A DNA stretch of 63,801 bases from Microcaldota archaeon. Lineage in GTDB: Archaea > Micrarchaeota > Micrarchaeia > Micrarchaeales > Micrarchaeaceae. The notes under the pieces were generated by a model. It saw only the letters and a program-made list of their open reading frames with translations, searched no databases and was not told where the DNA came from. Of this stretch, positions 42,084 to 59,012 are shown one piece after another. The stretch spans positions 1-63,801 of the forward strand of contig JAJYYB010000002.1 of NCBI GenBank assembly GCA_021801355.1, read 5' to 3'. The position numbers and the translations under genes were made by a program. Position 1 is the stretch's first letter. The number at the start of each line of letters is the position of its first letter.

Positions 42084-42148
42084 CTATGTATATAAGATAA
42101 CACATAATTATTTAAGGGTTTTATCGCTTAGAATTAAACGTGATTCTG

Positions 42149-42580
42149 ATGGGAAATACAAAGGACAAGTTGTTTGCAAAGCTGAACGTCATCTCTATGC
42201 ATGCAAGCGCAATACACAAGTCGTACATGGTGCTGATGCTTCTCTCACTAGTTTCAGTAATGTACGCCCAGTTACCACCTCAAGGCACAGCTGAATATAA
42301 CGCCATGTCAGCGCTTTGCTCTGTATATAATCCTATAGTAGGTATAATATTCATACTTGCACTGGTTCTGATAGTGCTCGGAGGCGCACTTTTCGCAGGG
42401 TCTAACATGCTTCCTGCTCAAACAAAAGGCCAAATACAGAGCTACGGCATGTCAATGATAATAGGCGGCGTTATAGGCATAGTAATATACCTGATCGCAC
42501 CATTTATGATAGGCGTGCTAGGGGGCACAGCGGCTTCTACCCAGATAGGTTACTGCAGCCAATTTGCAACTACTGCATGA
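42149..42580 (+). CDS. VirB2/TrbC-like pilin candidate
   Basis: This 143-residue protein has a long basic start, a signal-like hydrophobic segment ending SVMYAQ (about residue 45), then a mature part of about 95 residues. The mature part holds two membrane helices, IVGIIFILALVLIVLGGALF and MSMIIGGVIGIVIYLIAPFM, joined by a short polar loop (AGSNMLPAQTKGQIQSYG). Cleavable signal plus two-helix hairpin with a Gly-rich turn is the layout of VirB2/TrbC pilins and of archaeal TedC-like pilins. Two Cys flank the hairpin. I start at ATG 42149, behind GTGAT; a GTG at 42140 is also in frame. It stands first in the putative secretion locus. The call rests on topology, not on a search. Confidence 0.55.
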   Translation: MGNTKDKLFAKLNVISMHASAIHKSYMVLMLLSLVSVMYAQLPPQGTAEYNAMSALCSVYNPIVGIIFILALVLIVLGGALFAGSNMLPAQTKGQIQSYGMSMIIGGVIGIVIYLIAPFMIGVLGGTAASTQIGYCSQFATTA

Positions 42581-43065: not shown

Positions 43066-43824
43066 ATGGCAGACGTAATAACCAACGCGCTTGAGACCTA
43101 CACCAAGCACGCGCAGTTGCTTCTCATCTCATCGATTTCGTTCGTTATAGCCATATTGATACCTATTTTCGCTGCTTTTCCAACCTACACTGCAATGGGT
43201 GGCATATACCTTAGGACTGCAAGCATATTTTCCAACCTAACAGTTCTGAACACTGCAGTGATTGTCGTTTCTGTGTTCTTTTCTCTCCTATTCATAAGCT
43301 TCGCCATGGTGGCAATAAACATAATAGTAAAGCACAGCAGGACCTATGCGAAGATAAGGCAGGAGGTGTTCAGGGGGCTTGAGAAGTATACGAGCAGGGT
43401 CTTCGTTGTGCTGCTCATATTAGAGACAATAATAATACTTGCAAATGCGCTCAGTTTCGCCGTAACCAACTCAACACTATGGTCCGGCGCGTTGACCGCC
43501 ATAGTGGGCCTGATAATATCGCCGTTCTTCTTCTACGCTCCTGCCTCAATAATAATAGATGAGAAAAACACGCCAAGGGCCATGGTCGCCAGCTTCAGGT
43601 TCTTCTTCAAGCGCTTCGACTACGTGATTCTCTGGCTTGCGATAAGCATAGTGCTTATAACGGTGTTCGACTTCGTTTTTGTTGCAATAGGGAATGCAGC
43701 ACCGACCATCGCCTACCTACTGCAGATAGTGGAGCTCATCATAGTCACTGTAATACTGCTTCCTTTCCTGATAGTGCTGCAAAGCGAATCGTACATGAAG
43801 CGTTTCGCCATGCTGAAACACTAA
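43066..43824 (+). CDS. six-TM membrane protein, unknown
   Basis: This 252-residue protein has about six membrane segments in two groups of three (around residues 18-38, 58-88, 110-132, 138-165, 190-215 and 220-240). The long middle loop is basic (KHSRTYAKIRQEVFRGLEKYTS). The repeated pattern resembles the DUF975/GlpQ-type membrane domain (AMVASFRFFFKRFDYVILWLA), seen in many archaeal polytopic proteins of unknown role. It lies between the pilin-like gene and the six VirB6-like paralogues, in the same direction. It may belong to the locus or be a bystander. Confidence 0.6.
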   Translation: MADVITNALETYTKHAQLLLISSISFVIAILIPIFAAFPTYTAMGGIYLRTASIFSNLTVLNTAVIVVSVFFSLLFISFAMVAINIIVKHSRTYAKIRQEVFRGLEKYTSRVFVVLLILETIIILANALSFAVTNSTLWSGALTAIVGLIISPFFFYAPASIIIDEKNTPRAMVASFRFFFKRFDYVILWLAISIVLITVFDFVFVAIGNAAPTIAYLLQIVELIIVTVILLPFLIVLQSESYMKRFAMLKH

Positions 43825-43855
43825 CCTTATAATACTTTTTTACGTCTATCTTACC

Positions 43856-45160
43856 ATGTTAAAAGCAGCCGCATTTCGCATGCGCTTCATAACGATCTTG
43901 GTATTAATTTTTGCCTTATTCCAGTTCATTAATTCCTCCAGCGCCCAGTCACCTTTCGGGTCTGTGAACTGCATCATCACCGGCACGAGCATTCCTGTGG
44001 GGAGCTGCATAGAGTCAGCGATACCGCTCTGGGCAATCGGTATTATGCTCTCATTCGCGCTGATAGGGCTTAGCTACATGCTCGGCGAGATCTTCCAGCT
44101 CAGCGCCCTTAAGGGCTGGTACAGGTCAGAGCTCTGGGAATCAACGAAGACCATGATGCTTGTGGCCGTGATCTTTTCAGTTCTGGTGATATTCAGCTCC
44201 ATAGCTTCATCGCTTGCCGGTACTGGAAGCGCACCTGCTTCTCTTGGCACTACCGGCCAGATATCTCAGAACCTCGGCGGACTATACGCTGTGGCTGGCA
44301 ACTACCTAACGGTAGCATCGCAAAATGCCACGAACTCCATGCTCACGCTATTCGGCGCAGCGTCACAGATAGACTTCTTGAAAAGCTTCCGAATCAGCGT
44401 CTGGTTCCCAATCCCTACGCTGATAGGGCCTGAGACAATAGCGTTCCATTTCGGCGCCGACACCCCGATATTCATAAGCAACCTTATAGACGCAGGACCA
44501 AATTCGTCATCGCTCCTCAGTAACGCTGCGACATTGGTGGTCTTGCCCACACTGATAATGCTGCAGTCGCTCTCCAACCTCTTCTATGACATAGTTGCCT
44601 TGGGCTTCGGCCTCTTTATTCCGCTTGGATTAGTATTCAGGGCAATACCATTCCTCAGGGGTTTCGGCGGCACATTCATCGCTATAGGTCTAACGCTCTC
44701 ATTGGTGCTTCCGATGATTTTCGTCACGGTCAACATACCTGTAAGCGATCTTGTCCTTGGGCAGGGCGTCTACTGCACCTCCGGCAGCCAATCGGTATGT
44801 TCAGCCATAGCCGCGGCGTCAGGTTCAAGCTCTGGATCCTCATGCAATACGGCTTACTCACAATACGGCGCCATACTGGACGCAATACTAGGGTTCCTGG
44901 GCTGCATTTCATCAAACATATCATCGACGTTATCATCCGGATCGGCCTTCTCTACGGGCTACAATGTAGCTAGCGCCACGTTCTCGGAAACGTCAATATA
45001 CCCTATAGCCGACCTTGTTACTTCAATAGTACTGAACTCGGTACTGCAATTCATATTGCTCATAGTTGATTTCATTATAGGTTATACAATAGCAAAGGCA
45101 ATAGCGCAGCAGCTCGGCGGCACGATAAGGCTCGGCTTCGGAAAGATGAGGATGGCATAA
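43856..45160 (+). CDS. VirB6/TrbL-like polytopic membrane protein, paralogue 1
   Basis: This 434-residue protein has a signal-like N-terminus (TILVLIFALFQFINSSSAQ) and about seven further membrane segments. The first inner segment is followed by a cytoplasmic stretch with conserved acidic residues (YMLGEIFQLSALKGWYRSELW). Around residue 260 is the shared signature LVFRAIPFLRGFGGTFIAIG followed by a TM ending in Pro. The last TM has LIVDFIIGYTIAKAIAQQLGG. The same three blocks occur in the next five genes. A late Ser-rich extracytoplasmic loop carries Cys. Alternative start ATG 43880. VirB6/TrbL assignment is by topology and context. Confidence 0.6.
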   Translation: MLKAAAFRMRFITILVLIFALFQFINSSSAQSPFGSVNCIITGTSIPVGSCIESAIPLWAIGIMLSFALIGLSYMLGEIFQLSALKGWYRSELWESTKTMMLVAVIFSVLVIFSSIASSLAGTGSAPASLGTTGQISQNLGGLYAVAGNYLTVASQNATNSMLTLFGAASQIDFLKSFRISVWFPIPTLIGPETIAFHFGADTPIFISNLIDAGPNSSSLLSNAATLVVLPTLIMLQSLSNLFYDIVALGFGLFIPLGLVFRAIPFLRGFGGTFIAIGLTLSLVLPMIFVTVNIPVSDLVLGQGVYCTSGSQSVCSAIAAASGSSSGSSCNTAYSQYGAILDAILGFLGCISSNISSTLSSGSAFSTGYNVASATFSETSIYPIADLVTSIVLNSVLQFILLIVDFIIGYTIAKAIAQQLGGTIRLGFGKMRMA

Positions 45161-45174
45161 ATACGGCAGATTAT

Positions 45175-46452
45175 ATGCAAACGCAATCCAACAAATGCAA
45201 GTTCCTCGTACGCTTGCTAGCCGTGCTCTCAATATTCATACTTGTGGCGCTGCCTTCGACGGCATATGGCGCCCCAACATCGCTAACATCAGATGTCTAC
45301 AACACCGCCTGGATACCAATAAACCTGCTTGTTATAACAGTGAGCTTCGCCATCATAGCGCTAATTTACACCCTATCGAACGTGCTTCCCAGGGACATGA
45401 GGGCCAAGCTCCACTCGCTTGTCATGACAGAGATAAACCAGAACCTGATAAGCGTTCTCATACTGATTATACTCTTCTCGGCTACTGTTATAGTGGGCCA
45501 ATTCTCCGCATCGCTGCCGCTGACTGGTCAGTATGCCTGCAATCTGGAAAGCTCTAGTTGCAACCCGTTCATAATAGCTGATGCATACGTTGACACACTG
45601 ACATTTGTTACCGGTATCAACCTGCTCAACCAGATATACAGCAATTCGATAAGCTACGCTATAAATGCGAGGATTTGGAGCGGGGTCGGGCAGAGCATAC
45701 CTAGCTCTATAGTACCTTCAATAGCCTCACTACTGCAGCTGAAGTCCATAAGCCTGCCATTCATCCAGATAACTCCTGTGTTCGGAGGCGACCTCGGCAT
45801 CTCATACGCCATAATCAGCGACCTCCTTGTTGGGATATTCACGCCGCTGCTCATGGTGACATTGGGTACCATGTTCATACAGTACATAATGATATCCGTC
45901 ATAGAATTCTCTGCATTCTCCATAGTATTGCCTATAGCGCTTATGATGCGCTCCTTCGCGTTCACCGGAGCCGGGCTTAGGACCGCGGCAAACTCGGTTC
46001 TTGCTGTAGCAATAGCAGCCTACCTGATCTACCCGACAATGGTCGCGTTCAATCCAAGCATAATATCATGGATATTCACCTCATGCCAATCCACAACAAC
46101 TGCTTCTGGAGGGTGGTGCAACCCTACATACAAGTACCTTAACACTGCTTACACTCTACCAGACATAACGGTCTCAACTTTTCTGTCGCAGAGTTCAACC
46201 CAGGTCATTTCTGGGGGGCCTTCGCTGACGACATTGGGCATAGGCCAACTGAGCTCGGTGCTAGCGGCAGCGGATCCTTTCTCAGTCACACAAACACTGT
46301 TCACTATCTCGAACAACGTCGCACAATTCATGTTCACTTCAGTAATGCTGTTCGCTCTTGACCTCACCGTAACCCTCGGTTTCGGCGTTGGTCTTGCAAA
46401 GGCGCTCACTGGTGGGCTCGACGGCGTTGCGTCGTTCTGGAGCAACGTATAG
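45175..46452 (+). CDS. VirB6/TrbL-like polytopic membrane protein, paralogue 2
   Basis: This 425-residue protein repeats the plan of its upstream neighbour: signal-like start (LLAVLSIFILVALPSTAYGA), then TM, then a cytoplasmic block LSNVLPRDMRAKLHSLVMTE. The signature is more diverged, MMRSFAFTGAGLRTAANS (about residue 258), followed by a TM ending LIYP. An extracytoplasmic loop with two Cys (CQSTTTASGGWC) and the last TM with ALDLTVTLGFGVGLAKALTGG complete it. The start lies 15 bases after the previous stop. Low sequence identity but the same order of blocks argues for an old duplication. Confidence 0.6.
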   Translation: MQTQSNKCKFLVRLLAVLSIFILVALPSTAYGAPTSLTSDVYNTAWIPINLLVITVSFAIIALIYTLSNVLPRDMRAKLHSLVMTEINQNLISVLILIILFSATVIVGQFSASLPLTGQYACNLESSSCNPFIIADAYVDTLTFVTGINLLNQIYSNSISYAINARIWSGVGQSIPSSIVPSIASLLQLKSISLPFIQITPVFGGDLGISYAIISDLLVGIFTPLLMVTLGTMFIQYIMISVIEFSAFSIVLPIALMMRSFAFTGAGLRTAANSVLAVAIAAYLIYPTMVAFNPSIISWIFTSCQSTTTASGGWCNPTYKYLNTAYTLPDITVSTFLSQSSTQVISGGPSLTTLGIGQLSSVLAAADPFSVTQTLFTISNNVAQFMFTSVMLFALDLTVTLGFGVGLAKALTGGLDGVASFWSNV

Positions 46453-46462
46453 GTGTTGGTTT

Positions 46463-48031
46463 ATGCTTCCGCTATCAAACTTGGTGCTTCAGGTAACCGG
46501 CACATCAGCCATATCGTCGTGTTCAGGGGCCACCTCCGCTCTGGGCCCGGCAAGTGTATGCACCGCACAGACAAGCCTGGCCACATTCATAATATTCGCC
46601 ATCATCATCGACGCGGTGATAATCGGCGTATGGTTCATGATAGGCTATGTGCTCAACGACCAGCGCATCAAGGCAACTGCAAGGGGAGAGTTCCTGCAGC
46701 TGATAGGCACAGGCATATTGGTGGCTGTCGTAGTAGGTGTGCTTGTATTCTTCGCCTCGCTGTATATATCATCATTGGGTTCGTCCGCGCTGAATCCACA
46801 GGCTATGTTCTACACTTGTAACAATATAGCCGCGGGCTCCAGGCTGACGCTCTTTTCCGGTAACTTCCTCGCCGGCACCTCGTACAGCACTGCCAGCAGC
46901 CAGAATGTGCTTGCAGCAAACGGCAATCCAAGCAACTTATACGAGCCTTACAACCTGCTCGCCGGTACTACCACATTCCCCGGTCTTTGTGCCATGGTGG
47001 CAAGCCCTTCGTCATTCACAAACCAGATAGACTATCCTCTCGCTACTACCGCAGTCCTAATAGCGAATCTCACAAACCAGACTGCAGGCAATCTAAATGG
47101 CCTTTTTGAACTCGATACATACTTAGGTTTCCTGGACAGCTTCACGCCATTCGTCGAAGAGTGCGATTCCGCAGGCCTCGCATGCTTGATACCTGGATTG
47201 GGTGTGATAGAATTCAATGGGAAGGTGTCATTCCAGCCTTATGCCGGCTATGATCTAATATTCCAGTCGTACGCGCCGCTTGGCGACCTCCTCTCGCTCG
47301 CTTTCGAGTCGTACATTGCTCAGTTCGTTTTCATAATCGCAGCGCTTTTCATATGGCCTTATCTGCTGTTCATAGGGATAGTGCTTAGGGCCACTCCTTT
47401 CACCAGGGCCATAGGCGGCCTTTTCATAGCGATAGCCATAGGTGTTGTGATATTCCTACCCGTAATATACGGACTCGAATACACCAACCTGTGTTCTGGG
47501 GTGCCATACAACCTGAATGTCGGCCAGCCGCCACCCAGTTGCAACGGTTACAGCAGCACTCCGACAAGCGCATACGCGTTCAACTCGTTCTCCTACGGGT
47601 TCAACGGCATAACGCAGATACCTGCCAACTCTCCGATCACAGGCAATCAATACGTAATAAACTTCTTCGTCCTGCCGAACGTAACGTACATAGGCACCCA
47701 TAACAATTGCTGGCCCAACGGAGGCATATTCAGCTCAGAGCTAAATAACATATTAGCAGCCATGGTGCCTTTCAGCGAAATAACTAGCGCAATCTTTATA
47801 GCCTCGGGCAACGGAGTGCCGAGCGGCGTGCCTGTTCTGAGCACTCAGGCCTGCCAGCCAACTGACGCCAGGATGTTGCTCTACCAGCTCTTCGACGCCT
47901 ACGGGGTAGTTGGCGTGAGCGCTTACTTCATGCCGATAATAGATTTGATGGTGGTCATATCCGGGATAATAGGCCTTTCCGGCATGCTCGGCGGCGACAC
48001 CGAGCTCGCAGGCCTGGCTAAGCTCGTTTAG
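46463..48031 (+). CDS. VirB6/TrbL-like polytopic membrane protein, paralogue 3 (longest)
   Basis: This 522-residue paralogue starts at ATG 46463, behind AGGTGT; the frame extends to 46388 inside the previous gene, but that is unlikely. There is no classical signal; it opens with a short extracytoplasmic segment containing Cys (SSCSGA, SVCTAQ). The cytoplasmic block reads LNDQRIKATARGEFLQLIG and the signature is IVLRATPFTRAIGGLFIAIA (about residue 306), followed by a TM ending LPVIYG. Two extracytoplasmic inserts make it longer than the others. The last TM ends GLSGMLGGDTELAGLAKLV. Confidence 0.6.
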   Translation: MLPLSNLVLQVTGTSAISSCSGATSALGPASVCTAQTSLATFIIFAIIIDAVIIGVWFMIGYVLNDQRIKATARGEFLQLIGTGILVAVVVGVLVFFASLYISSLGSSALNPQAMFYTCNNIAAGSRLTLFSGNFLAGTSYSTASSQNVLAANGNPSNLYEPYNLLAGTTTFPGLCAMVASPSSFTNQIDYPLATTAVLIANLTNQTAGNLNGLFELDTYLGFLDSFTPFVEECDSAGLACLIPGLGVIEFNGKVSFQPYAGYDLIFQSYAPLGDLLSLAFESYIAQFVFIIAALFIWPYLLFIGIVLRATPFTRAIGGLFIAIAIGVVIFLPVIYGLEYTNLCSGVPYNLNVGQPPPSCNGYSSTPTSAYAFNSFSYGFNGITQIPANSPITGNQYVINFFVLPNVTYIGTHNNCWPNGGIFSSELNNILAAMVPFSEITSAIFIASGNGVPSGVPVLSTQACQPTDARMLLYQLFDAYGVVGVSAYFMPIIDLMVVISGIIGLSGMLGGDTELAGLAKLV

Positions 48032-48039
48032 GTATTAGC

Positions 48040-49257
48040 ATGTCAATGAAACAAAACGCATTGCCAAGATTCGCATTGATAATGCTAGCGCTGCTCATGC
48101 TGACCAATGTGGCATACGCCCAAACGTCGCAGGGGACCACGTCCAGCCAGGTCTGCCAGAGCATAATACAGGCCTACACGACCTCTACAGTGCCGCAGTC
48201 GCAGGGCTCGTCTTCATCATCAGGCGCATCAATAACTGTAAACATAGCCAGCTTCACATCCCTGATAGTGATATCGCTGCTGATAATAAGCCTGATGGGC
48301 GCGCTGATAGCTATAATATACGCGGTTGGCCAGGCATTCGGTATTGATAGGCTTACCAGGTTCGCCAAGGCCGAGGTCGGCGAGATAGCCATAACGCTCC
48401 TGATAATATTCATATTCCTCGGCACGCTCTCCTTGACTGGCACTTTCACAAATTCGAGCAGTCTCTTCGCAGCTGCAGGCAGTTCGTTCAATACGAACAT
48501 ATTCGTCGATGATTGCAATGCTGTCATGGCGTCTTCATATTCGCTAATATCGCCAGAACTCTCTTTCGTCATCGATAGCGGCCTGATTAACATAGCGTCT
48601 GGAACCGTCATATCAACGCAGCTTTCGGATTTCGGCGTTTCGTTCAATCCGTTCGCAGGCGATGAGTTCCTCGGCACTATATTGCAGACGCTGATAAGCA
48701 TAGGCGGGGTGATGATAGGGCTGCTTTTCGGCATAGGCGTATTCCTTGCGGTGATATACGGCATGTTCCCGATGTTCCTCTTCGCAGGAATAGTGCTGAG
48801 GACGCTCCCTTTCACCAGGCCGGCAGGCGGTGCGTTCCTCGGGCTTTTCGTAGGGTTCTACATATTCCTGCCATTGATACTCCATTTCCTGCTGTTCTAC
48901 AACAGCACGTTCCTCACGCAGAGCCAGAACGGCCTTTGCGGCCCGAGCTCGTGCAACACAGGTGACTTAATAACACAATTCGTGGGCTACATGAGCGGAG
49001 GGGCGACCACAGCACTGACTGGTAATTCAATCACAAGCGGTCTAAACGGTGCCTCGACCTTCGGGACGAGCACGATATCATTGCTGAACGGCTCCATCAT
49101 ACAGGCTTTCGTAAGCCTCATAATAGAGCCGGTATTCTACACGATGCTCGCTTTTATACTTTCATTGATAATGGCGTATGATTTTATGGAAGCCGTTGGC
49201 GACCTTCTCGGTGCGCCTAGCCTTAAGTCGAGCGCGATGCTCAAGAACGTGATATGA
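48040..49257 (+). CDS. VirB6/TrbL-like polytopic membrane protein, paralogue 4
   Basis: This 405-residue paralogue has a signal peptide (LPRFALIMLALLMLTNVAYAQ), then TM1 and the cytoplasmic block FGIDRLTRFAKAEVGEIAI. The signature is IVLRTLPFTRPAGGAFLGLF (about residue 250), followed by a TM ending FLPLIL. A Cys-containing loop (GLCGPSSCNTG) precedes the last TM, which reads LIMAYDFMEAVGDLLGAPS. The start is eight bases after the previous stop. It is the clearest representative of the conserved R-x2-P-F-T-R-x2-GG signature. Confidence 0.62.
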   Translation: MSMKQNALPRFALIMLALLMLTNVAYAQTSQGTTSSQVCQSIIQAYTTSTVPQSQGSSSSSGASITVNIASFTSLIVISLLIISLMGALIAIIYAVGQAFGIDRLTRFAKAEVGEIAITLLIIFIFLGTLSLTGTFTNSSSLFAAAGSSFNTNIFVDDCNAVMASSYSLISPELSFVIDSGLINIASGTVISTQLSDFGVSFNPFAGDEFLGTILQTLISIGGVMIGLLFGIGVFLAVIYGMFPMFLFAGIVLRTLPFTRPAGGAFLGLFVGFYIFLPLILHFLLFYNSTFLTQSQNGLCGPSSCNTGDLITQFVGYMSGGATTALTGNSITSGLNGASTFGTSTISLLNGSIIQAFVSLIIEPVFYTMLAFILSLIMAYDFMEAVGDLLGAPSLKSSAMLKNVI

Positions 49258-49258
49258 C

Positions 49259-50386
49259 ATGAAGCCGCAATCGCTCGCAATTGTATGCGTCGCCTCTCTA
49301 CTCATGCTAGCTTGCTCGACCAATGCGGCTTCGCTTGACGAGTCATTTTCGCATTACTACAATCCAGGTGCTCTTTTCACCGCATCAGCGCAATCCTATA
49401 CACTGCAATCCTATCTGCCAGTCGAGATAACAAGCTGGGAAGGCCTTGCAGTGATAGCGATACTGCTTGTTATAGCAGTGGCTTCCATAATCTATCAGCT
49501 AAGCGGTGTGACAGGCAGCAGCAATGCACGTGCATGGTCAAAGATGCAGGTGTATGAAGGCCTCGTTTCGCTACTTTTGATAGGGATATTCGGTACTTTC
49601 TCCTACCTCTTCTTCCTGAATCCTCAGGGCGCATTCCAGAGCGCAAACTTACTGCCTAACAGCTGTGGTCCTGTAAACGCGCCCAATGTCAACAACATAT
49701 ATAACTTGTCTACATGCGACCTGAGCTTCTTCCTGCTAAATGCAACGGGCTATTTCGAGGACCTGTACTACGTCGGTTTCATAGCAGGCGCAGCAACCCC
49801 TGGAGTCATACTAAATTTCACCCCCCTCAATCCGGTGCTGGGCCAGTCCGGGGTATTCGTACAGTTGGGCGATCCGAGCCTGCTTCCCTCTTCGATGGAA
49901 TCGCTGCTTACGACGGCTGATTCAGGCCTATTGTCTTTCATACTACTGAACCAGGTGCAGATGATCCTTCTTTCAGGGTCGCTACTGTTCCTGTCGTTCT
50001 TCATGGTGCTGGGTCTGGTAGCCAGGAGCTTCGGCTTCACAAGGACGTTCGGAGGCTCGATGATAGCTTTCGGCCTTGGCCTAGGCATGGTATACCCGCT
50101 TCTTGTCAGCATGAGCTACGGCTTCATAGACGTGCAACTGCAGCAGACATCTATAGCCTCGATAGGCTCCTCGCTGGCAAGCACAATATTCTCGATAGTG
50201 GGTAGCACGGTAACGAATTCGCCCCCTGCGCTCTCTACGGCCGTGCTCGAGACCGGCTATCTGCTGGTTGGGTTGTTGATAATACCATTGCTCAACTTTG
50301 CCATACTGGACGCGTTCATAGTCGACTTCTCTAAGGCGATCGGCGAGCGCATAGACTTCATGTCGATGATAGGCAGCGTGATATGA
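49259..50386 (+). CDS. VirB6/TrbL-like polytopic membrane protein, paralogue 5
   Basis: This 375-residue paralogue begins with a signal-like segment (LAIVCVASLLMLACSTNAAS); the Cys in LACS could make it a lipoprotein. TM1 is followed by LSGVTGSSNARAWSKMQVYE. The signature is LVARSFGFTRTFGGSMIAFG (about residue 250), followed by a TM ending YPLLV. The last TM has LDAFIVDFSKAIGERIDF. The start codon is one base after the previous stop, so translation is coupled. Confidence 0.6.
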   Translation: MKPQSLAIVCVASLLMLACSTNAASLDESFSHYYNPGALFTASAQSYTLQSYLPVEITSWEGLAVIAILLVIAVASIIYQLSGVTGSSNARAWSKMQVYEGLVSLLLIGIFGTFSYLFFLNPQGAFQSANLLPNSCGPVNAPNVNNIYNLSTCDLSFFLLNATGYFEDLYYVGFIAGAATPGVILNFTPLNPVLGQSGVFVQLGDPSLLPSSMESLLTTADSGLLSFILLNQVQMILLSGSLLFLSFFMVLGLVARSFGFTRTFGGSMIAFGLGLGMVYPLLVSMSYGFIDVQLQQTSIASIGSSLASTIFSIVGSTVTNSPPALSTAVLETGYLLVGLLIIPLLNFAILDAFIVDFSKAIGERIDFMSMIGSVI

Positions 50387-50387
50387 T

Positions 50388-51578
50388 ATGGTGAACCGCA
50401 GACTTAAGATAGAGGCGCTTGTCATAGCTCTTTTGCTAGCCATGGCTCTCTCGATTGTGCCTGCTAATGTAACTAATGCGCAGCAGACACAGCAAAGTAC
50501 TTTGCCTGATATAATCCTCGTGCAATCAGGCGGTACGCCCACTACCACTATACCTACATACCAGGCATGCGGGTATTATCCGCCCGAGCTCGCCACCCAG
50601 CTGGCCAACGTGCCATGGTACTGCCCAATAAACCAGCAGATAACTGCGGAGTGGAATGTCGACCTGCCATACGTTTTCATATCCCTTATACTAGCGTTCC
50701 TCGTCTCGGGCTTGATAATAATGATAGGGATCGCCGGGAAGAGCGATTCGGTAAGGAACTTCGGGATGGGAGAGCTCTACGAGGCTATCGCCAGCACTAT
50801 AATAGTAGGGCTATTCATCTACATAACCGCAGCCCTTTTCGGCCTGCTTCCTGCTAACCTTGTCGGCACTTACAATCCTTACGCAACAGCTCTCAACCTT
50901 ATAAACACCACGATAACCACGTCAGAGAATCTTTACACATCTTTGTACCAGACGTACATAACAGACAGCTTCTTCGCTTCGGTCAACATAGCGATAAGTT
51001 ATCCTCTTTCTGATGTGATAAATCCATGGTCGCTGATAGCAAACTTCTTCGACGCAGCCAAGCAGGAGGCGCTCATGATACAGGTCATAGAGCCGATCCA
51101 GGTCATAACGGGGGTGCTCAACAGCGCCATAATAGTGCTATGGTCGGAATATTACCTTATAGTATTCTTCTCAGTGGCTGCGATTCCGGTTTTCATAGTG
51201 CCAGGTGTGCTATTCAGGATATTCCTGCCGACGAGGCCGTTCGGTGGAATGCTCCTTTCGCTCGGGATAGGCTTCTACCTAGTAATGCCAACGCTTTTTG
51301 CCATAGTCTCTGTATTCGGTCTGTCAGGTGCAAATGCAAGCTTGGGCAATGCGACAGCGCAGATATCGAACCTTGGGGCCGGTGCAGGTGCCATAAACAA
51401 CAGCGGACAGATAGCCACGCAACTTCAGACCGTAACGGCAGCCATGAGCCAGTTCTGGCTCATGATAATATTCTTCCCCGGGCTCATAATCGCGCTCACG
51501 TATTCGTTCGTCACGCAGATGGCCAACTTCATAGGCGGTGTCTCGTATAGCGGGAGCAGGCTTAGGTCGTTCATATGA
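50388..51578 (+). CDS. VirB6/TrbL-like polytopic membrane protein, paralogue 6
   Basis: This 396-residue paralogue has a signal peptide (VIALLLAMALSIVPANVTNAQ), TM1 and the cytoplasmic block KSDSVRNFGMGELYEAIAS. The signature is VLFRIFLPTRPFGGMLLSLG (about residue 273), followed by a TM ending MPTLF. An extracytoplasmic loop rich in Gly, Ala and Asn precedes the last TM, LIIALTYSFVTQMANFIGG. The start is one base after the previous stop. It is the last of the six in a row; a 99-base gap follows. Confidence 0.6.
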   Translation: MVNRRLKIEALVIALLLAMALSIVPANVTNAQQTQQSTLPDIILVQSGGTPTTTIPTYQACGYYPPELATQLANVPWYCPINQQITAEWNVDLPYVFISLILAFLVSGLIIMIGIAGKSDSVRNFGMGELYEAIASTIIVGLFIYITAALFGLLPANLVGTYNPYATALNLINTTITTSENLYTSLYQTYITDSFFASVNIAISYPLSDVINPWSLIANFFDAAKQEALMIQVIEPIQVITGVLNSAIIVLWSEYYLIVFFSVAAIPVFIVPGVLFRIFLPTRPFGGMLLSLGIGFYLVMPTLFAIVSVFGLSGANASLGNATAQISNLGAGAGAINNSGQIATQLQTVTAAMSQFWLMIIFFPGLIIALTYSFVTQMANFIGGVSYSGSRLRSFI

Positions 51579-51677
51579 GCATGTGCAGTGACAATCGAAA
51601 AATCTTAGTGACACTACAGCAAAGTTAATAAAGATTAAACCACAAAATAGAATGTTTGGCATACAAGGCAGGTCCTC

Positions 51678-52508
51678 ATGCAAACTAAAACTTTGGTTCT
51701 GTTAGCTTTTTTGGGCGTTTCTGTAGTTCTGCTAGCATTTGCAGCTGCGCTTCCGTCCGGCGGCCTTCTCGACATACTGAAGCTGATACTTCTGGTCTTG
51801 GCTCTGCTCTTCGATATCCTGGCTTTCGCATCAAGGTTCTACACATATCTTATGGTGCCAGCGCTACAGCAGAGGAGCAAGGACATAATTCTGAGCAACG
51901 ACGAGGCTTACACAATATCGCCTTCAGCGGATTCAACTATACACAAGGAGGGCAGCGAATTCGTCGCCACTGTTTACGTCAGCATACCACTATATAGGTC
52001 CGCTACAGAAATGAGCGACGAGGAGAAGCTTGACTTTACGAGGCAGGTGAGCAAATTGGTGGGCGTGAGCGGCGATCCTGTGCGCTTCACTTCCGAGCTT
52101 TACGTGATGAATAAGGACGCTTACATACAGACGCTGAAGGACACGATAAATTCCCTTGAGAACGATGTGGTCGCCCTGACGAGCAAGAAGAGCCAGCCCA
52201 AGGAGCTGGATCGCGCGAAGGGCAAGCTCGCCATGTGGCATAACATGCTGGACAACATAGAAAAGGTGCAGTCGCTCGAGCTCGTGACCTACGCCGCAGT
52301 ATCGGCTAAAGGTACGAAGGAGTTCGAGGCGGTAAGTATAGCGCAGCAGAGGGCGAGGGACATAATGTCCGGCATAGGTTCGATATTCGGGGTCACTCCG
52401 AGCATAGTCACCGGACAGGAGCTGCTCAAGTTCATCGAGCCAGAGTACCTTATACCTTTCTCCACGATAAGCGAGCAGCTGAGCAGGAACATACAGCAGG
52501 TGATTTGA
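51678..52508 (+). CDS. membrane hairpin plus soluble domain, VirB3/VirB4-N-like (first of two)
   Basis: This 276-residue protein has two N-terminal membrane helices (TLVLLAFLGVSVVLLAFAAA and LLDILKLILLVLALLFDIL), then a cytoplasmic domain of about 210 residues. The domain mixes strands (EFVATVYVSIPLY) with long helices (YIQTLKDTINSLENDVVAL), then ELVTYAAVSAKG and ends near PEYLIPFST. A two-TM hairpin followed by such an alpha/beta domain is the layout of PrgI/VirB3 fused to the N-terminal domain of VirB4. Here the ATPase domain is a separate gene two positions downstream. The call is structural inference. The next gene starts directly at its stop. Confidence 0.5.
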   Translation: MQTKTLVLLAFLGVSVVLLAFAAALPSGGLLDILKLILLVLALLFDILAFASRFYTYLMVPALQQRSKDIILSNDEAYTISPSADSTIHKEGSEFVATVYVSIPLYRSATEMSDEEKLDFTRQVSKLVGVSGDPVRFTSELYVMNKDAYIQTLKDTINSLENDVVALTSKKSQPKELDRAKGKLAMWHNMLDNIEKVQSLELVTYAAVSAKGTKEFEAVSIAQQRARDIMSGIGSIFGVTPSIVTGQELLKFIEPEYLIPFSTISEQLSRNIQQVI

Positions 52509-53342
52509 TTGGATGAAGAAGCGATAATGTACCTCCTGTTAACGTTCATGGTAGCTCTCGCAGTGGTCCTAATATTGCCATCGTTCGGGAAGGGCATAGT
52601 TTCGATACTGGCCCTAATACTCGCGCTTGTCACAGTAGCCATAATAGTGATGCTTAACTGGGCAGACTTCATAATATTCCCGCTTGTGACCAGCCTGCTC
52701 GGCATGACCTTCCAGCCGGCCAGGAACTACAAGATAACAAAGAACCAGGATGCGATAGTGAAGAACGTCAACGGGCTGTACTACGCCACCGGCTATGTGA
52801 CTGCCAACCTCCTTCCTTACGTTTTCAAGCTCGAGTCGAGGCAGGAAGAGGAGAATCAGAAGATGTTGCAGGCCCCTGATACGTGGGAGCGCGCGATAAT
52901 GAACATAGGTTTCCCGTTCAAGTTCCACGTGCTTTCCTCGGGCCTTGACGTGCAGGACGTGAGGGACGAGCTTGAGGGCAAGAGGTCATACCAGGAGTTC
53001 CAGCTCTCCAGGCTGCAGCAGGGCTCCAACGCAAGCGAGACCGCAGTCACTGAAATAAGGAGGAAGATAAGCGTGCTGCAGACTAAGATCGACAGGATAT
53101 CGCAGGGAGAGAAGCCAATAGCCACAATAATGTACTTCGAGACTACTGCGGTTGACGTCTCGGAGAAGGCTGCGGTAGACAGGCTGTCGGCGCAGATAAA
53201 GAGCCTGCAGGTTTCGTTCAGCTCGCTAGACGTGCAGTTGGCCAAAGTGGTAGGCCGTGAACTTTACACGCTGTTCAAGTTCAATTTCTCGCTTCCAACG
53301 ACTTATACAGAGATATCAGGTTATTTCGACAGGCAGTCATGA
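52509..53342 (+). CDS. membrane hairpin plus soluble domain, VirB3/VirB4-N-like (second of two)
   Basis: This 277-residue protein has the same architecture as its upstream neighbour: two membrane helices (TFMVALAVVLILPSF and ILALILALVTVAIIVML), a short amphipathic segment, then an alpha/beta domain. The domain contains IVKNVNGLYYATGYVT, FPFKFHVLSSGLDVQDVRDE and a long coiled region (TEIRRKISVLQTKIDRIS), ending VGRELYTLFKFNFSLP. The segment with an MNIGFPFKFHV strand resembles VirB4/TraC N-domains. The TTG start at 52509 follows the previous stop without a gap; ATG 52527 is the alternative. It precedes the ATPase gene by 27 bases. Confidence 0.5.
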   Translation: MDEEAIMYLLLTFMVALAVVLILPSFGKGIVSILALILALVTVAIIVMLNWADFIIFPLVTSLLGMTFQPARNYKITKNQDAIVKNVNGLYYATGYVTANLLPYVFKLESRQEEENQKMLQAPDTWERAIMNIGFPFKFHVLSSGLDVQDVRDELEGKRSYQEFQLSRLQQGSNASETAVTEIRRKISVLQTKIDRISQGEKPIATIMYFETTAVDVSEKAAVDRLSAQIKSLQVSFSSLDVQLAKVVGRELYTLFKFNFSLPTTYTEISGYFDRQS

Positions 53343-53369
53343 GCAATAAAATGTTTTAGGGTTTGTAAA

Positions 53370-54881
53370 ATGACACTACTGAAGCTACAGAGCATCATGA
53401 GCAATGAGGTCGCCAAGCGGGCCTTCTTCTCCAGGCCACCCGAGCCCCCGGTAAGTGCGCTAATGACCGACCCTTTCAAGTCGCTCTACATAGGCACCAC
53501 TAAGATATTCAGGGTGCCATTCACATGGTCGTTCTTCAACCTGACCAACCCGCACATAGCAGTCGTCGGTATAACCGGTTCTGGAAAAAGCTATTTCGTC
53601 AAGACCCTTCTCATAAGGGCGAGCTACGTTTGGAACACCAACGCCGTTATAATAGACTGGGCCGGGGAGTACAAGGCATGGGTAAAGCAGAGCGGCGGTG
53701 TGGTCGTTGCATTAGCCAAGGGCGACTACCTGAACATAATGGATCTCTCCGGTATGAAGCCGCTCGACAGGACAAAGCAGATAATGAACTCGCTTGACAT
53801 ACTCACCGACATAAGCCAATTCCCAGAGCAGAAAAGGCTTACAGAGGAGGCGATAGAGCAGTCCTATGCAAACTTCGGTTTCATAGTCTCTGAGAGGCCG
53901 CTCGACAACAGGGATGCGCCAACGTTTAAGGACGTCATAGCGCTGCTCGAGGAGAAGCTGCAGGAAGGCACTTACGAATACCCTGCCGAGCTCGAGAACA
54001 CGATATACAGGCTTCGCCAGTTCGCGCGCGAAGGCGAGGACTATTTCGCCAGGAAGAGCACCATAGACCTCGGCAAGCTTTCCGAATCAGGCCTAGTCGA
54101 CATAGACCTATCGGGGCTCCCCGACGAGAAGTTCAGGGCTCTCGCCGGCCTATTCATACTGCAGACGCTGAAGGAACGCATGAGGAGCGAGGGCTGGAGC
54201 GAAAGCAAGGGGCTCAAGGCCATAGTCGTCCTGGACGAGGCATGGAAGATAGCAAGCGATGAGAAGAGCGACGCAATAATGATAGTCAGGGAGGGAAGGA
54301 AGTACCAGTTCGGCCTCATAGTAGCCTCGCAGAACCCGACCGACATAAACGAGGCAATATTCTCCAACGTCGGCACAACTTTCATACTAAGGATAAAGTT
54401 CGAAAAGTTTCTCAACTACTTACAGGGCTCGATGAATTTCTCAAGCTTCATAAGGAACGAGATAGGCAAGTTCGGGGTGGGCCAGGCCGCGGTAGAGATG
54501 GCTTTTCAGAGCGCGATAAGGTTCCCTGAGACATTCATACTAGAGAGGATACACGGCGAGGAGCCGCTTTACGTCTACACGATAGATATGACTGACGTAC
54601 TCACGCAGGCTGAGGTGGCTGCAGGAGTGATGCAGCGTGACTACCAGTTCGAGAGGGATGAGCTGAAGGATAGGCTGGTCGACTACAACGTCAGCAGCGA
54701 GGGCGTTAACGCTACTCTTTCATCATTCGACAGCAGTGGCAGGAGCATGAAGATGCTCGACATGCTGCGCATAGTTAAGGACACTGGCGGGATAACGAAC
54801 GAGAACCTCGTCTCGTTCCTAAAGAGCCTTAGCATAGATGACATACTCATAACGAGGATACTTGGCTCATTAGGTGTCTAG
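53370..54881 (+). CDS. VirB4/HerA-family ATPase of the secretion-like locus
   Basis: This 503-residue hexameric-type ATPase has Walker A VVGITGSGKSYFVKTL (about residues 65-80), Walker B AIVVLDEAWKIAS (about 285-297) and the sensor/finger segment REGRKYQFGLIVASQNPTDI (about 308-328). The N-terminal 60 residues form a short strand-rich entry, much less than a full VirB4 N-domain, which fits its supply by the two upstream genes. The C-terminus is helical and ends DDILITRILGSLGV. It would power pilus assembly or DNA movement. It is related to the broken ATPase at the left window edge. Strongest anchor for the T4SS-like call; a HerA-type translocase is the alternative. Confidence 0.85.
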   Translation: MTLLKLQSIMSNEVAKRAFFSRPPEPPVSALMTDPFKSLYIGTTKIFRVPFTWSFFNLTNPHIAVVGITGSGKSYFVKTLLIRASYVWNTNAVIIDWAGEYKAWVKQSGGVVVALAKGDYLNIMDLSGMKPLDRTKQIMNSLDILTDISQFPEQKRLTEEAIEQSYANFGFIVSERPLDNRDAPTFKDVIALLEEKLQEGTYEYPAELENTIYRLRQFAREGEDYFARKSTIDLGKLSESGLVDIDLSGLPDEKFRALAGLFILQTLKERMRSEGWSESKGLKAIVVLDEAWKIASDEKSDAIMIVREGRKYQFGLIVASQNPTDINEAIFSNVGTTFILRIKFEKFLNYLQGSMNFSSFIRNEIGKFGVGQAAVEMAFQSAIRFPETFILERIHGEEPLYVYTIDMTDVLTQAEVAAGVMQRDYQFERDELKDRLVDYNVSSEGVNATLSSFDSSGRSMKMLDMLRIVKDTGGITNENLVSFLKSLSIDDILITRILGSLGV

Positions 54882-54884
54882 CTG

Positions 54885-55193
54885 ATGGCTAACGAAGAGA
54901 CGTTCACGATAAGCCGCGCAGAACTGCGGCGCATACTGACAAATTTCGGCGTCACGGAAAAGAACCTGACGGCTCTTTTCAACTCCATGGAGAAGGCGCA
55001 CAGGCACATAAACATAATAGCATTCGTAAGCATGCTCGAGAAGGCAGGCATGGATCGCGACGAGACCGGCAACATATTCAGGAGGCTTAACATGGACGAC
55101 GTAACGATAAAGCGTGCGTTTGATATGGTGGACGAGGAGAAGATCAATTCAGAGACAGGCAGGCTTTACGATGCCTCTGTTGACATAAGTTGA
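54885..55193 (+). CDS. small helical protein, possible ATPase adaptor
   Basis: This 102-residue soluble, charged helical protein reads FVSMLEKAGMDRDETGNIF then RRLNMDDVTIKRAFDMVDEE. The C-terminus of the upstream ATPase has a similar run (LKSLSIDDILITRIL), so both may share one small helical module. The start lies three bases after the ATPase stop. No family is recognised. A role as adaptor or docking subunit of the ATPase is inference. Confidence 0.6.
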   Translation: MANEETFTISRAELRRILTNFGVTEKNLTALFNSMEKAHRHINIIAFVSMLEKAGMDRDETGNIFRRLNMDDVTIKRAFDMVDEEKINSETGRLYDASVDIS

Positions 55194-55197: not shown

Positions 55198-55608
55198 ATG
55201 GGAAAGAAGGGCGCCAAGGCTTCACCAGCTGCGTATGGTTCGAGATGTATAATCTGCGGCCTTGAAAAGGACGGCTTAGAGGTCAAGGAAGATTACGTAA
55301 TAAATGCCATGAGATACTTCAAGAAGAATATCACCAAGAACGCAAAGAACTACAGGCTTGTAGTGTGCAAGGAATGCTTCCCGAAATACGACAAGGCAAG
55401 GAACAGCTACGTGAAGAAGCAGATATCGTATGTCGCAATAGCCGTGGCTTTTGCTGTCTTGCTCATAATAGTCGCTGCTGGAAATTTGGGTGCAATAGTC
55501 TACGGCCTTGCAATCATAATATTCATGTACCTGCTTTCGCTGCTTAGCTACACGCCAGGAGTTAAAATGCCTCCTAATGTAAAGCCGCCGAAGGTTGGAC
55601 GCAAATAA
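55198..55608 (+). CDS. zinc-ribbon membrane protein
   Basis: This 136-residue protein has a zinc-binding N-terminal part with CIICGLEKDG (about residue 18) and CKECFPKYDK (about residue 56). Two close membrane helices follow (ISYVAIAVAFAVLLIIVAA and GAIVYGLAIIIFMYLLSLL), and the tail is basic and Pro-rich. The zinc knuckle faces the cytoplasm. It starts four bases after the preceding stop, so it is in the same operon. Similar Zn-ribbon plus two-TM proteins occur widely in archaea without known function. Confidence 0.65.
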   Translation: MGKKGAKASPAAYGSRCIICGLEKDGLEVKEDYVINAMRYFKKNITKNAKNYRLVVCKECFPKYDKARNSYVKKQISYVAIAVAFAVLLIIVAAGNLGAIVYGLAIIIFMYLLSLLSYTPGVKMPPNVKPPKVGRK

Positions 55609-55695: not shown

Positions 55696-56433
55696 GTGAT
55701 ACAAGTGCCTGATGAAAACGTTGTTCTTGAACCAAAAGTCGACGCTATAACTATTGGAGGCTCTCTGCAAGGCTCCTTCGAATCGATGGCAACAAGGCTT
55801 TCCCCGCTGCAGGTTTTCTCCATCAAGTCTACCCCGGACAGACTCGTGGTACTACGGGTCGAGAGCAGGGACATGCAGAAGAATCCATTCCTGTTCTTCA
55901 TGATGACATTCGAGAAGGACAAGATAACTGTCGAGTATTCCATAGTGCAGGACACAAGCTTCAAGCTGAGGCGCCTTTTCGTGCTCAGGAACCTCCTCAG
56001 CGTAATCTCACTCAATCTGGACATGTACCAGCCAAACCCAGTCGAGCTTTTCCAGCAGCTCAGCTCATCTATAGACGACGCGCTCAACTCACTTGATCAG
56101 AGCTACAGCTCCCTCGTTAACAATTACGATTATATATTCAACGAGTACAGGGAGCTGAAGAAGCTCGGCGCCCAGCTTATGGCCTCGAACAAGAGCATGA
56201 CCGTGCAGGCTTCGCAGTTGGCATCGGAGAACGAAGCGCTCAAGGCAAGGCTGAAGTCGCTTGAAGCATACTCCGACGAATCCCTGATGTCGATGATTGA
56301 GGACTGGATACAGGCCCATGACAACACGATAGACATAGACGAGTTCGCCAAGAACTACAAGATAGTCGCGCCACGCGTCGAGCAGATGCTCAACAAGATG
56401 GTCTCGCTTGGCTATATAGAGTTCAGGGGCTAG
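55696..56433 (+). CDS. coiled-coil protein with C-terminal winged helix
   Basis: This 245-residue soluble protein has an N-terminal beta-rich domain of about 110 residues (FSIKSTPDRLVVLRVESRD; KDKITVEYSIVQD), a coiled coil from about residue 115 to 195 (NEYRELKKLGAQLMASNKS), and a C-terminal winged helix (IDIDEFAKNYKIVAPRVEQM, then GYIEFRG). The start is GTG 55696 or GTG 55705; no ATG fits. An AT-rich stretch (ATGTATTTATAGAATTAAG, near 55650) may hold its own promoter. No family is recognised. It could regulate or organise the locus. Confidence 0.6.
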   Translation: MIQVPDENVVLEPKVDAITIGGSLQGSFESMATRLSPLQVFSIKSTPDRLVVLRVESRDMQKNPFLFFMMTFEKDKITVEYSIVQDTSFKLRRLFVLRNLLSVISLNLDMYQPNPVELFQQLSSSIDDALNSLDQSYSSLVNNYDYIFNEYRELKKLGAQLMASNKSMTVQASQLASENEALKARLKSLEAYSDESLMSMIEDWIQAHDNTIDIDEFAKNYKIVAPRVEQMLNKMVSLGYIEFRG

Positions 56434-56615: not shown

Positions 56616-59012
56616 ATGCAGGGCGGCACTAAAAAGAAAATAGTCATAGCAACATTGGTACTTGTAGTGCTTCTAGGTGCGCTGGCCTTCTATCTTAACG
56701 CAGCCCTATCCTCATTCAGGTCACAAATAAGCCAGCCGACCGGTCCGCCAGCAGTGCCATCAATATCTGCACAGCTACTAAACCAGAGCTTCATGGCCTA
56801 TAGTTCAGGATCTACGCTCTTGCCCTACGCCCTAATAAAAGTAGCATCCAGGAACGCCTCGACAATAAACGTGTATGCCAGCATATTCAAGAACCCTGTG
56901 CCGCAGCAGATATACATATTCAACATGACTAACGAATGCTACCAGTGCGGTAACATTACCGCTTTCACCGATTCTATAGATACTAGCCTTATAAAGTACG
57001 GCTTGATAAAGAACTCCGGCGTTGTGCTTTCAGTTTCAGGCTCCGAACTGGCTAATATATCTAATTACTCAATACTAATAGTGCCAAACGGCTACATCCC
57101 AGAGGCTTTCATGAGCAATTACAGCAACACGCAGAATTCCACAATCCAATACCTCATGAAAAAAGGCGTAAGCATCATATACGTCGGTGCAGACTTCTCT
57201 AACATGCTGGAGCCAGGATCCATAATAGTCCCTTCAGGCACGCTTCCTTACTTCCTGCGCACCCTGCCGTTCACCAAGCTTAACCAGAGCACAATAGGTT
57301 CATTCGGTAACTTCTATTTCAACAAGACGCAGTTCACCTTTGCCTCGGGCCAGTCCTATGGCTACCTATCATACGAGAACGTGCTGAATGGCTCTATTGT
57401 TGCATTCTCCAACTATGGGACCTCATGGTCAAACTCTACTGATGAGGGCAGGGACATAGCAAAGGCCATATCATCGCTGTTCTGGTTGCCGCGATACGCA
57501 AGCGGGACCCAATCGTTCAGCCTGATTAACTCAACCAAGTTCAATGGCGACATAGGCATACCACTCTACACGAGCTCCCTGCATTACACATATCCGGAAT
57601 CGCTGGCGCTAGGCAAGACATACGCACGTATAGCGCTTTACACCAACGCAAGCTACAATATAACTGCTCCGAACAGCGCCTACACATACGTCACATACAC
57701 ACCGCAATTCGGCATAAACGGTTCGGTATCAATACCATCATCCATTATACCGGGGCAACGCACGGCTTTCGACCTAGACATATTCACTCATTCCAACACC
57801 TCCATATCTCTGCTTCCGCATCTGCAAATATACGACCAGAACATGACCCCGGTTGAGGGAATCGCGCTCCCCTCGATACAGCAAGCGTCCGGCAACTTCA
57901 CGTTCCTTAAATACCTAACGCTAGAACTGCCTCCCGGAGTTTACATAGCTGCTCTAGACAACTTCACGGACCACCCATACGCGTACGGCCTATTCGACGT
58001 AAACCTCTCAGTAACGCTTCTGTCAGCCAACTTCTCTTCCAACCAGTTCACGTTCTACGTTTCTTCTGCCGGACAAGCCCTCAGCGGCGTTAACTACTCG
58101 GTGCATCTTTCGAACCAGCAATCAAAGTATGCATTCCCAGTAGAAAACGGCACGCTCACCAACGGCACTATTGTTTACACTGTACCAAGCGGCGCCCCGG
58201 CGCTGTATTACAGCTCCAACATAACTGTAAATATGCTGTCAAGCAGGTTCAGCTTCTTCGCTTTCAACCAGCCGCCCCCATTCCCGATAAATACGCAGGA
58301 CATAGAGATACTTGTAGTTTTCGCCGTCCTTGGCCTGATGGTCGTATTTGTCAGGGCGCCTAACAGGGACGAGTTCTACATAGACGTGCCTCACATGCCG
58401 CCCAAGAACAAGACGCAGATAAAAATCAAGGCGTCCGAGGTGACTGGTATATTCGACAAGCTAAACCTCTACTATCACTGGAACCACATGCCGCTTTCGA
58501 AGAGCGAGATAAAGCTTGCGATCTCGAAGTACATAAACTTCAGCGGCATGCCGGTCAACCTAACGTTCAGCAATGTCGAGAAGATCCTTGACCAACTCGT
58601 AGCGTCCGGCAAGCTCGTTACCGTAGACGGCCTCTACGCTCCCCAGTTATGGGTCCTGCATGGCCACGACATAGAGTACCTTGCTACTTTCAAGAAGCTC
58701 AGGGTGTTCCTGGTCTCGCACGGTTACCTTTTCACCGAAATAGACGCGAGCAACGTCGCTGACATAGTGGCTACACAGCACGGCGAGCATGCCTACATAG
58801 TGATTTATTCGAAAACCAGCAGGTTCGCCAACATGCCCGTATTCCAGAACGCCAAGACATACCTTGCATTCCTAAACTCAGACCGCATTGATGAATTCAG
58901 GATGAACCTTTACAATGACAGCACTAACGAGGCGGAGATGCTCAAGCTCTACATGGCTTCAGGGACGGTGGAGCTCATCGATGCGGACAACCAGCAGCCG
59001 ATACTTACTTGA
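56616..59012 (+). CDS. large bitopic membrane protein with glycosylatable ectodomain and cytoplasmic winged helix
   Basis: This 798-residue protein has an N-terminal TM (IVIATLVLVVLLGALAFYL), an ectodomain of about 530 residues, a second TM at about 561-580 (IEILVVFAVLGLMVVFV) and a cytoplasmic tail of about 215 residues. The ectodomain is rich in Asn, Ser and Thr with many N-x-S/T sites; its first part looks Rossmann-like (ILIVPNGYIPEAF; GVSIIYVGADFSNML) and the later part beta-sandwich-like. The tail has a winged-helix-like segment (MPVNLTFSNVEKILDQLVAS) and an alpha/beta end with AYIVIYSKTSRF. It ends the secretion-like locus. Cell-contact or receptor role is inference. Confidence 0.65.
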   Translation: MQGGTKKKIVIATLVLVVLLGALAFYLNAALSSFRSQISQPTGPPAVPSISAQLLNQSFMAYSSGSTLLPYALIKVASRNASTINVYASIFKNPVPQQIYIFNMTNECYQCGNITAFTDSIDTSLIKYGLIKNSGVVLSVSGSELANISNYSILIVPNGYIPEAFMSNYSNTQNSTIQYLMKKGVSIIYVGADFSNMLEPGSIIVPSGTLPYFLRTLPFTKLNQSTIGSFGNFYFNKTQFTFASGQSYGYLSYENVLNGSIVAFSNYGTSWSNSTDEGRDIAKAISSLFWLPRYASGTQSFSLINSTKFNGDIGIPLYTSSLHYTYPESLALGKTYARIALYTNASYNITAPNSAYTYVTYTPQFGINGSVSIPSSIIPGQRTAFDLDIFTHSNTSISLLPHLQIYDQNMTPVEGIALPSIQQASGNFTFLKYLTLELPPGVYIAALDNFTDHPYAYGLFDVNLSVTLLSANFSSNQFTFYVSSAGQALSGVNYSVHLSNQQSKYAFPVENGTLTNGTIVYTVPSGAPALYYSSNITVNMLSSRFSFFAFNQPPPFPINTQDIEILVVFAVLGLMVVFVRAPNRDEFYIDVPHMPPKNKTQIKIKASEVTGIFDKLNLYYHWNHMPLSKSEIKLAISKYINFSGMPVNLTFSNVEKILDQLVASGKLVTVDGLYAPQLWVLHGHDIEYLATFKKLRVFLVSHGYLFTEIDASNVADIVATQHGEHAYIVIYSKTSRFANMPVFQNAKTYLAFLNSDRIDEFRMNLYNDSTNEAEMLKLYMASGTVELIDADNQQPILT

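Follow-up and report, generated by a model that had tools for sequence, protein, structure and literature searches.

The window analyzed here is a 63,801-nt stretch from a Microcaldota archaeon (GenBank assembly GCA_021801355.1, contig JAJYYB010000002.1), in which six consecutive same-strand genes, here called a1 to a6 (43856–51578), encode divergent VirB6-like membrane proteins. We favor, at slightly better than an even chance, the explanation that these are six non-interchangeable subunits of one obligate hetero-oligomeric, probably hexameric, VirB6-like inner-membrane channel, taken jointly with the reading that the machine is a reduced archaeal type IV secretion-like system analogous to Ced/Ted. 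The window corresponds to contig 19 (63.8 kb) of its genome, which totals 1.07 Mb, and the operon is chromosomal. It forms a single same-strand run from 42140 to 59012, in the order pil, m6, a1–a6, q1, q2, ATPase, s102, s136, c245 and g798 (Table 1). The six open reading frames (ORFs) were found where an earlier note on this DNA had placed them. As listed, the a3 ORF starts at 46388 and overlaps a2; judging from the packing of the genes, a start at 46463 is likelier, which gives intergenic gaps within a1–a6 of 14, 10, 8, 1 and 1 nt, with 99 nt between a6 and q1.

By profile comparison, a1–a6 are true paralogs. With family profiles of 33 to 37 sequences each, hhalign linked 15/15 pairs at 96.2–99.5% over 208–331 columns, whereas the unrelated protein m6, which has six transmembrane (TM) segments, reached at most 2.5% against a1–a6 and reversed profiles at most 9.1%. 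Because all 15 profile pairs link and both controls score low, the paralogy goes beyond the chance similarity of polytopic proteins. With single sequences, phmmer gave an E below 0.001 for 7/15 pairs when either direction was accepted, and the best match of a2 to the other five had an E of 0.014. Recent tandem duplication was set aside in view of the low identity and of orthologs standing in order across two families, and the old duplications and specialization proposed in the earlier note are supported. The note had further described a signature common to all six, which stood in part. In an unguided alignment of 30 sequences (the six paralogs from five genomes) the blocks are in register, with the first Arg of the signature kept in 29/30, the second also in 29/30 (where it falls in a2 varies with the alignment program), the Pro at the end of the following TM segment in 30/30, GG in 25/30, a late Gly in 25/30, and two Glu after an early TM segment in 24/30 and 21/30. 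What did not hold is a2, in which GG and the late Gly are absent in 5/5 sequences and the Arg residues and Pro are retained. The Glu residues also differ by position, as Gln replaces the second in 5/5 orthologs of a3, and Gln or Lys replaces the first in 5/5 orthologs of a5. Among the larger ortholog sets, the pattern R-x5-R-x2-[GA][GA] occurs in 34/34 sequences of a1, 0/35 of a2, 32/37 of a3, 36/37 of a4, 27/37 of a5 and 37/37 of a6. As a separate observation, a2 matched the pilin at E 8e-6 in the 15-protein comparison, better than it matched any other VirB6-like gene.

The set of six is kept across relatives. The ATPase search retained 80 loci, titled Micrarchaeota (65), Marsarchaeota (7), Micrarchaeaceae (3) and, for the rest, Micrarchaeum, Mancarchaeum, Fermentimicrarchaeum, ainarchaeum and uncultured archaeon. 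From 59 relatives searched, loci were taken from 40, in two families. All six genes, which we call a hexad, were present in order in 33 of these loci; counted by gene, the ATPase was found in 40, q1 and q2 in 38, a3–a6 in 36, a2 in 34 and a1 in 33. Four of the seven loci without a full set end at contig borders (L013, L015, L021, L032), and in L020, L035 and L037 no hexad adjoins the ATPase. More broadly, the a4 profile matched 253/295 genomes drawn from the phylum, a figure that includes single-copy homologs and is not a count of hexads.

The earlier note had proposed looking for genomes that hold one, three or six copies. Of the distinct arrays, 84 had flanks of 800 nt or more on each side, and among these the number was one or six and never three: 67 had six members, 16 had one, none had three to five, and one counted as two; the second member of the latter is the pilin ORF (i.e., one plus a pilin). 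Members were counted at profile E ≤1e-3, arrays sharing the last 200 residues of the longest member were counted once, and regions were picked from profile hits, not randomly. One array (L140) needed a 751-aa member near the E 1e-3 limit to reach six. The 51/135 distinct arrays excluded for having less than 800 nt on one side comprised 26 with six members, 17 with two to five (the contig end was not checked for each), 5 with one, and 3 with seven or nine (L090, L127, L136) in which an ORF seems to be split or a short one added. In a first batch of regions, from other orders of the class, a six-member array was present in 20/20, 18 of which had flanks of 800 nt or more on each side (the exceptions being L138 and L142). 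To test the rule of six, 20 more regions were taken as a second batch; they held 18 hexad-type loci, 13 with six members (12 of them flanked in this way, L174 being the exception) and 5 cut near contig ends; the remaining regions were one minimal locus, described below, and one empty region chosen by guess. Two mapped hexads each were found in eleven genomes, and large insertions lengthen some members, with ORFs of up to 1409 aa. The draft genome G051 (L054, L055) has several ATPase-type hexads on different contigs, by real duplication or from mixed strains.

Cassettes were grouped by position-wise similarity into three types: T1, which stands beside the ATPase (with L147–L149 moved in), and T2 and T3, which are without a neighboring ATPase; L160 formed its own cluster and was left out of the comparison of types. 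For position-by-position profile scores between types (normalized by row and column means, using scores and ranks), the assignment of each position to itself ranked 1, 2 and 1 of 720 permutations; it came second for T1 versus T3, where positions 4 and 5 lie crosswise. Single-sequence best hits followed position clearly for T2 versus T3 and only partly for T1. In a FastTree tree of 22 of the 44 cassettes and 8 minimal homologs, which has long branches and 50/137 inner branches starred, position labels needed 9 changes, compared with a least possible 6 and a shuffled mean of 93.6. Positions 3 and 5 each form one starred group over all types, while positions 1, 2, 4 and 6 take two changes each. 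On these sequence comparisons, the three cassette types seem to derive from a single ancestral set whose positions they keep, and the conservation of positions across types is well supported. Most likely, the six positions predate the split of the types and the sampled lineages kept all six, and it is chiefly for this reason that we consider the six to act together. At position 2, the R-x5-R-x2-[GA][GA] pattern occurs in 0/35 sequences of T1, 3/17 of T2 and 0/12 of T3, and in the single-copy homolog of the minimal locus it occurs in 14/14; its loss at position 2 and retention in the single-copy homolog are as expected if ring positions specialize.

The hexad also behaves as a unit apart from the ATPase. 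In the ARM-1 genome (G028, L108), the operon is in three parts with the hexad intact: the six genes stand in order at about 342.7–350.5 kb, the ATPase at 426.9 kb and q1–q2 at 450.3 kb. In G001, from the window's genus, m6 and the six are on one contig and the ATPase is on another. Conversely, 14/14 main ATPase loci of other orders hold one q gene, the ATPase, s136, c245 and g798 together without any of the six, with pilin genes preceding them in 3/14. The only interruptions seen within hexads were contig ends and split ORFs. Searching 14 genomes with a mixed profile found six genes in G000, G001 and G028, one or two matches at the minimal locus in G016, G040, G058 and G129, one weak fragment each in G164 and G170, and no match in five genomes of other families, which also have no strong ATPase match; absence in this search is weak evidence because all 14 genomes but G028 are in several contigs. 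Among the few flanking genes examined, stand-alone hexads had no fixed neighbor, and the flanks differ (SMC-like, leucyl-tRNA-synthetase-like and ornithine-carbamoyltransferase-like proteins, recognized by eye with no search). Directly after the hexads L150, L154 and L161 lies a gene for a Cys-rich, lipoprotein-like protein of 1294–1640 aa without a Pfam match, and a peptidase M50-type gene directly follows the displaced hexad of ARM-1 (L197, 13021–14556). In L184, L191 and L148, three pilin-like genes stand in a row before q or a1, so the pilin is also multiplied.

Many relatives carry a second, minimal locus, consisting of a pilin, one VirB6-like gene, one q gene and a shorter ATPase, followed by others including a large gene. 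It was present in 13/15 regions chosen from such hits (L042–L053 and L056, the last without a q hit), and L054 and L055 proved to be further hexad pieces of one genome. The same locus recurred in L172, L192, L195 and, with the pilin on the opposite strand, L190. In 2/5 second-type ATPase loci (L193, L196) the ATPase has no VirB6-like gene. In the genome from which the window comes, searches gave one ATPase match at E 1e-10 and six VirB6-like matches, so a minimal locus seems to be absent there. With its one VirB6-like gene and one q gene, the minimal locus would be the homo-oligomeric counterpart of the hexad.

The VirB6-like identity given in the earlier note is supported by a tentative fold match of a4 and by neighbors resembling a type IV secretion system (T4SS). 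An AlphaFold2 model of a4 (mean pLDDT 74, pTM 0.69) was matched in the first three ranks of the VIA comparison by TrwI/VirB6 of R388 (the 7o3v/8rtd/7o42 system; Z 9.1–9.4), with 241/261 residues aligned at 5.6 Å in the best match (Z 9.4). For q1 (pLDDT 79, pTM 0.52), the first nine of 331 Foldseek matches were R388 inner-membrane-complex or VirB4 entries, at E 4e-3 to 0.1 (none below 0.001; 7o42_A prob 1.00), and VIA gave 8rtd_g at Z 10.4 over 147 residues, the next unrelated entry scoring 8.5. The match covers residues 218–378 of the R388 chain, which lie before the VirB4 ATPase domain. As modeled, the fold of q1 is VirB4 N-terminal-like; a search of PDB sequences with its profile gave no useful match. 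The pilin matched Pfam T4SS_pilin at E 0.017, below the cut-off, and with a profile of 28 sequences from the window and relatives the best PDB chain was TrwL, the R388 pilin (E 0.006). The ATPase matched Pfam DUF87/HerA (1.2e-17) and, in NCBIfam, CedD (1.1e-21), CedB (1.1e-17) and TraC (2.3e-13), all below the equivalog cut-offs; by sequence it is VirB4/CedB-like. Each match alone is modest, and together they describe a minimal T4SS in which the N-terminal part of VirB4, anchored in the membrane, is separate from the ATPase. No relaxase was recognized among the 20 window proteins scanned with Pfam.

In the favored explanation, one copy each of a1–a6 would form the pore, with one subunit of each per ring as the presumed stoichiometry; the tight spacing of the genes would favor equal synthesis of the six. 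The ring would stand over the hexamer of the HerA/VirB4-like ATPase. The q proteins, with their likeness to a detached TM hairpin and N-terminal domain of VirB4, would hold the ring in place; the pilin would assemble on it, and the substrate (DNA or protein) would pass through it. The constant six suggests a secretion or DNA-transfer channel ring built from six different parts, and the central VirB4 ring of R388, a hexamer (PMC9259494), would suit six subunits. A wider version falls just short of an even chance in our judgment: a homo-oligomeric VirB6-like channel would have been converted once, early in Micrarchaeota, to an obligate heterohexamer of six fixed positions, and the set copied as a unit into at least two cassettes per genome, some away from the ATPase locus, to provide the central pore through which a machine directed at hosts or partners makes its transfers. 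A parallel would be the change from homohexameric archaeal MCM to eukaryotic MCM2–7.

Several observations weigh against this explanation. None of the six matched VirB6/TrbL in Pfam or NCBIfam at E up to 1, the a4 profile found no match among PDB sequences, R388 VirB6 ranked tenth for the a4 model by Foldseek alone (E 0.34), and a Z near 9 for a helical model can reflect a common helix arrangement. No ATPase hit was present in the fetched region of 17/20 first-batch and 18/18 second-batch hexad loci, and the partnership of detached hexads with the ATPase is assumed. In single-sequence best hits, positions are not followed throughout, as T1 position 6 hits position 3 of T2, a mixed cluster, more often (92) than T2 position 6 (72), and T1 position 1 hits T3 positions 5 and 6 (46, 43) more than position 1 (12). 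Common ancestry accounts for part of the constancy of six. Some arrays may have a seventh member too divergent to be recognized: a polytopic ORF that the profiles did not hit stands on the same strand, no more than 1.5 kb from the array, in L137, L145, L147 and L151. The number of paralogs need not equal the order of the ring, because Rickettsiales carry four or five tandem VirB6 genes, and the VirB6 ring of R388 is described as a pentamer (PMC9259494).

Because that ring is pentameric, a five-member ring with one accessory subunit is possible, and we considered a pentamer of a1 and a3–a6, which mostly bear the signature, with a2 as an accessory or assembly subunit. Five tandem VirB6 genes in Rickettsiaceae (PMC7648143) fit this arrangement, as does the finding that only a2 lacks the pattern as a group (0/35; GG 0/5). 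However, a constant division of five plus one was not seen, because position 1 also mostly lacks the pattern in T2 (1/17) and T3 (4/12) and position 4 of T2 keeps it in 9/17, and we regard this arrangement as unlikely. More doubtful still is a division into six homo-oligomeric channels that share one ATPase but differ in the substrate or state that each serves. That each position is old and distinct, and that some members have large insertions, would suit such channels, but there is no bounded array of three to five members, the six remain together where the operon breaks, and this operon has one ATPase for the six. Least probable is a membrane complex, such as a transporter or envelope scaffold, that has nothing to do with type IV secretion and simply lies in the same operon as an ATPase: it is consistent with the missing VirB6 sequence-profile match and the many hexads without a nearby ATPase, but the fold matches of a4 and q1, the pilin match to TrwL and a minimal locus that repeats the plan with one copy speak against it. 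Separately, an origin in a mobile element or virus was set aside, as the a4 profile (A1) found no confirmed relative in viral contigs and the ATPase, the only plasmid query, gave only distant matches in 149 plasmid records, none of which covers 80% of the query at a single site, with the ten listed at 23.7–26.1% identity.

A comparison with known systems, as far as the available portions of the cited papers describe them, places the favored six-part channel near the Ced/Ted systems of Thermoproteota (CedA/TedA, CedA1/TedC, CedB/TedB, CedD, CedE; PMC9905601, PMC11868833). Shared features are a putatively VirB6-like multi-TM protein, a putative VirB2-like pilin, a VirB4/HerA-like ATPase and a chromosomal location, and among NCBIfam models the window's ATPase scores best to CedD and CedB. 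A similarity between CedA and the pilin CedA1 has also been reported (PMC9905601). Ced is described with CedA and, in Saccharolobus only, its paralog CedE, whereas the Micrarchaeota operon has six VirB6-like genes in fixed order, two copies of a separate protein like the VirB4 N-terminal domain, and further conserved genes. In Rickettsiales T4SS, too, tandem VirB6 paralogs that vary in length share an operon with virB3 and virB4 (PMC7648143), but these systems are bacterial and have four or five copies, compared with six in Micrarchaeota, which add a single-copy locus in many of the same genomes and detached hexads. The conjugative T4SS of R388 gives fold matches for a4 (TrwI/VirB6) and q1 (N-terminal region of TrwK/VirB4) and the profile match for the pilin (TrwL) (PDB 7o3v, 8rtd, 7o42), and differs in its VirB6 pentamer, in a matched VirB4 chain that holds both parts in one, and in its outer-membrane complex (PMC9259494). 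Patescibacteria T4SS are also among the nearest systems, and giant surface proteins with VirB4-like domains have been reported in nanohaloarchaea. In the literature collection searched, we found no paper on VirB6-like arrays in Micrarchaeota.

Micrarchaeota known in culture live attached to hosts. The cassette names a conserved candidate machine for exchange of material with partners, one that is widespread in the phylum, including ARM-1. In the available text of PMC11329633, contacts between ARM-1 and its host were imaged by cryo-tomography, the connecting nanotubes were attributed to the host, and the ARM-1 envelope has a 21-nm barrel whose identity the authors did not give. The coexistence of one-copy and six-copy loci in many genomes offers a clean comparison of a presumed homomeric with a presumed heteromeric channel, and it gives a case in which to ask what drives a ring to become heteromeric.

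Table 1 Genes of the operon in the window.
Gene	Position	Strand	Description
pil	42140..42580	+	Putative VirB2-like pilin; two strongly hydrophobic helices (hydropathy)
m6	43066..43824	+	6-TM protein unrelated to a1–a6; ortholog in 31/40 relatives' loci
a1	43856..45160	+	VirB6-like, position 1
a2	45175..46452	+	VirB6-like, position 2; most divergent; without GG signature
a3	46463..48031	+	VirB6-like, position 3; longest of the six here; start inferred
a4	48040..49257	+	VirB6-like, position 4; AlphaFold2 model best matched by R388 VirB6 (VIA)
a5	49259..50386	+	VirB6-like, position 5
a6	50388..51578	+	VirB6-like, position 6
q1	51678..52508	+	Two N-terminal TM segments and a VirB4 N-terminal domain-like fold
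q2	52509..53342	+	Paralog of q1 (hhalign 97.7%)
ATPase	53370..54881	+	HerA/VirB4/CedD type
s102	54885..55193	+	Small protein; phmmer match to ATPase; in 40/40 relatives' loci
s136	55198..55608	+	Cys pairs, 2 TM segments (hydropathy); kept beside ATPase
c245	55696..56433	+	Coiled coil; Pfam ZapB and EAP30 below cut-off; conserved
g798	56616..59012	+	Large; N-terminal TM, late TM, tail (hydropathy); conserved

Of the remaining features, a weaker N-terminal hydrophobic segment of pil may be a signal, and the two N-terminal TM segments of q1 are also predicted in q2 (hydropathy). The end of c245 is perhaps winged-helix-like. Pfam gave no match for g798, which is probably surface-exposed. The small protein s102 resembles part of the ATPase (phmmer E 5e-5) and is perhaps a detached copy of an ATPase segment. 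Downstream of the run ending at 59012 are topoisomerase VI B and EF1A genes, and beside the operon on the opposite strand (38481–42013) are mannosyltransferase-like and carbamoyltransferase genes.

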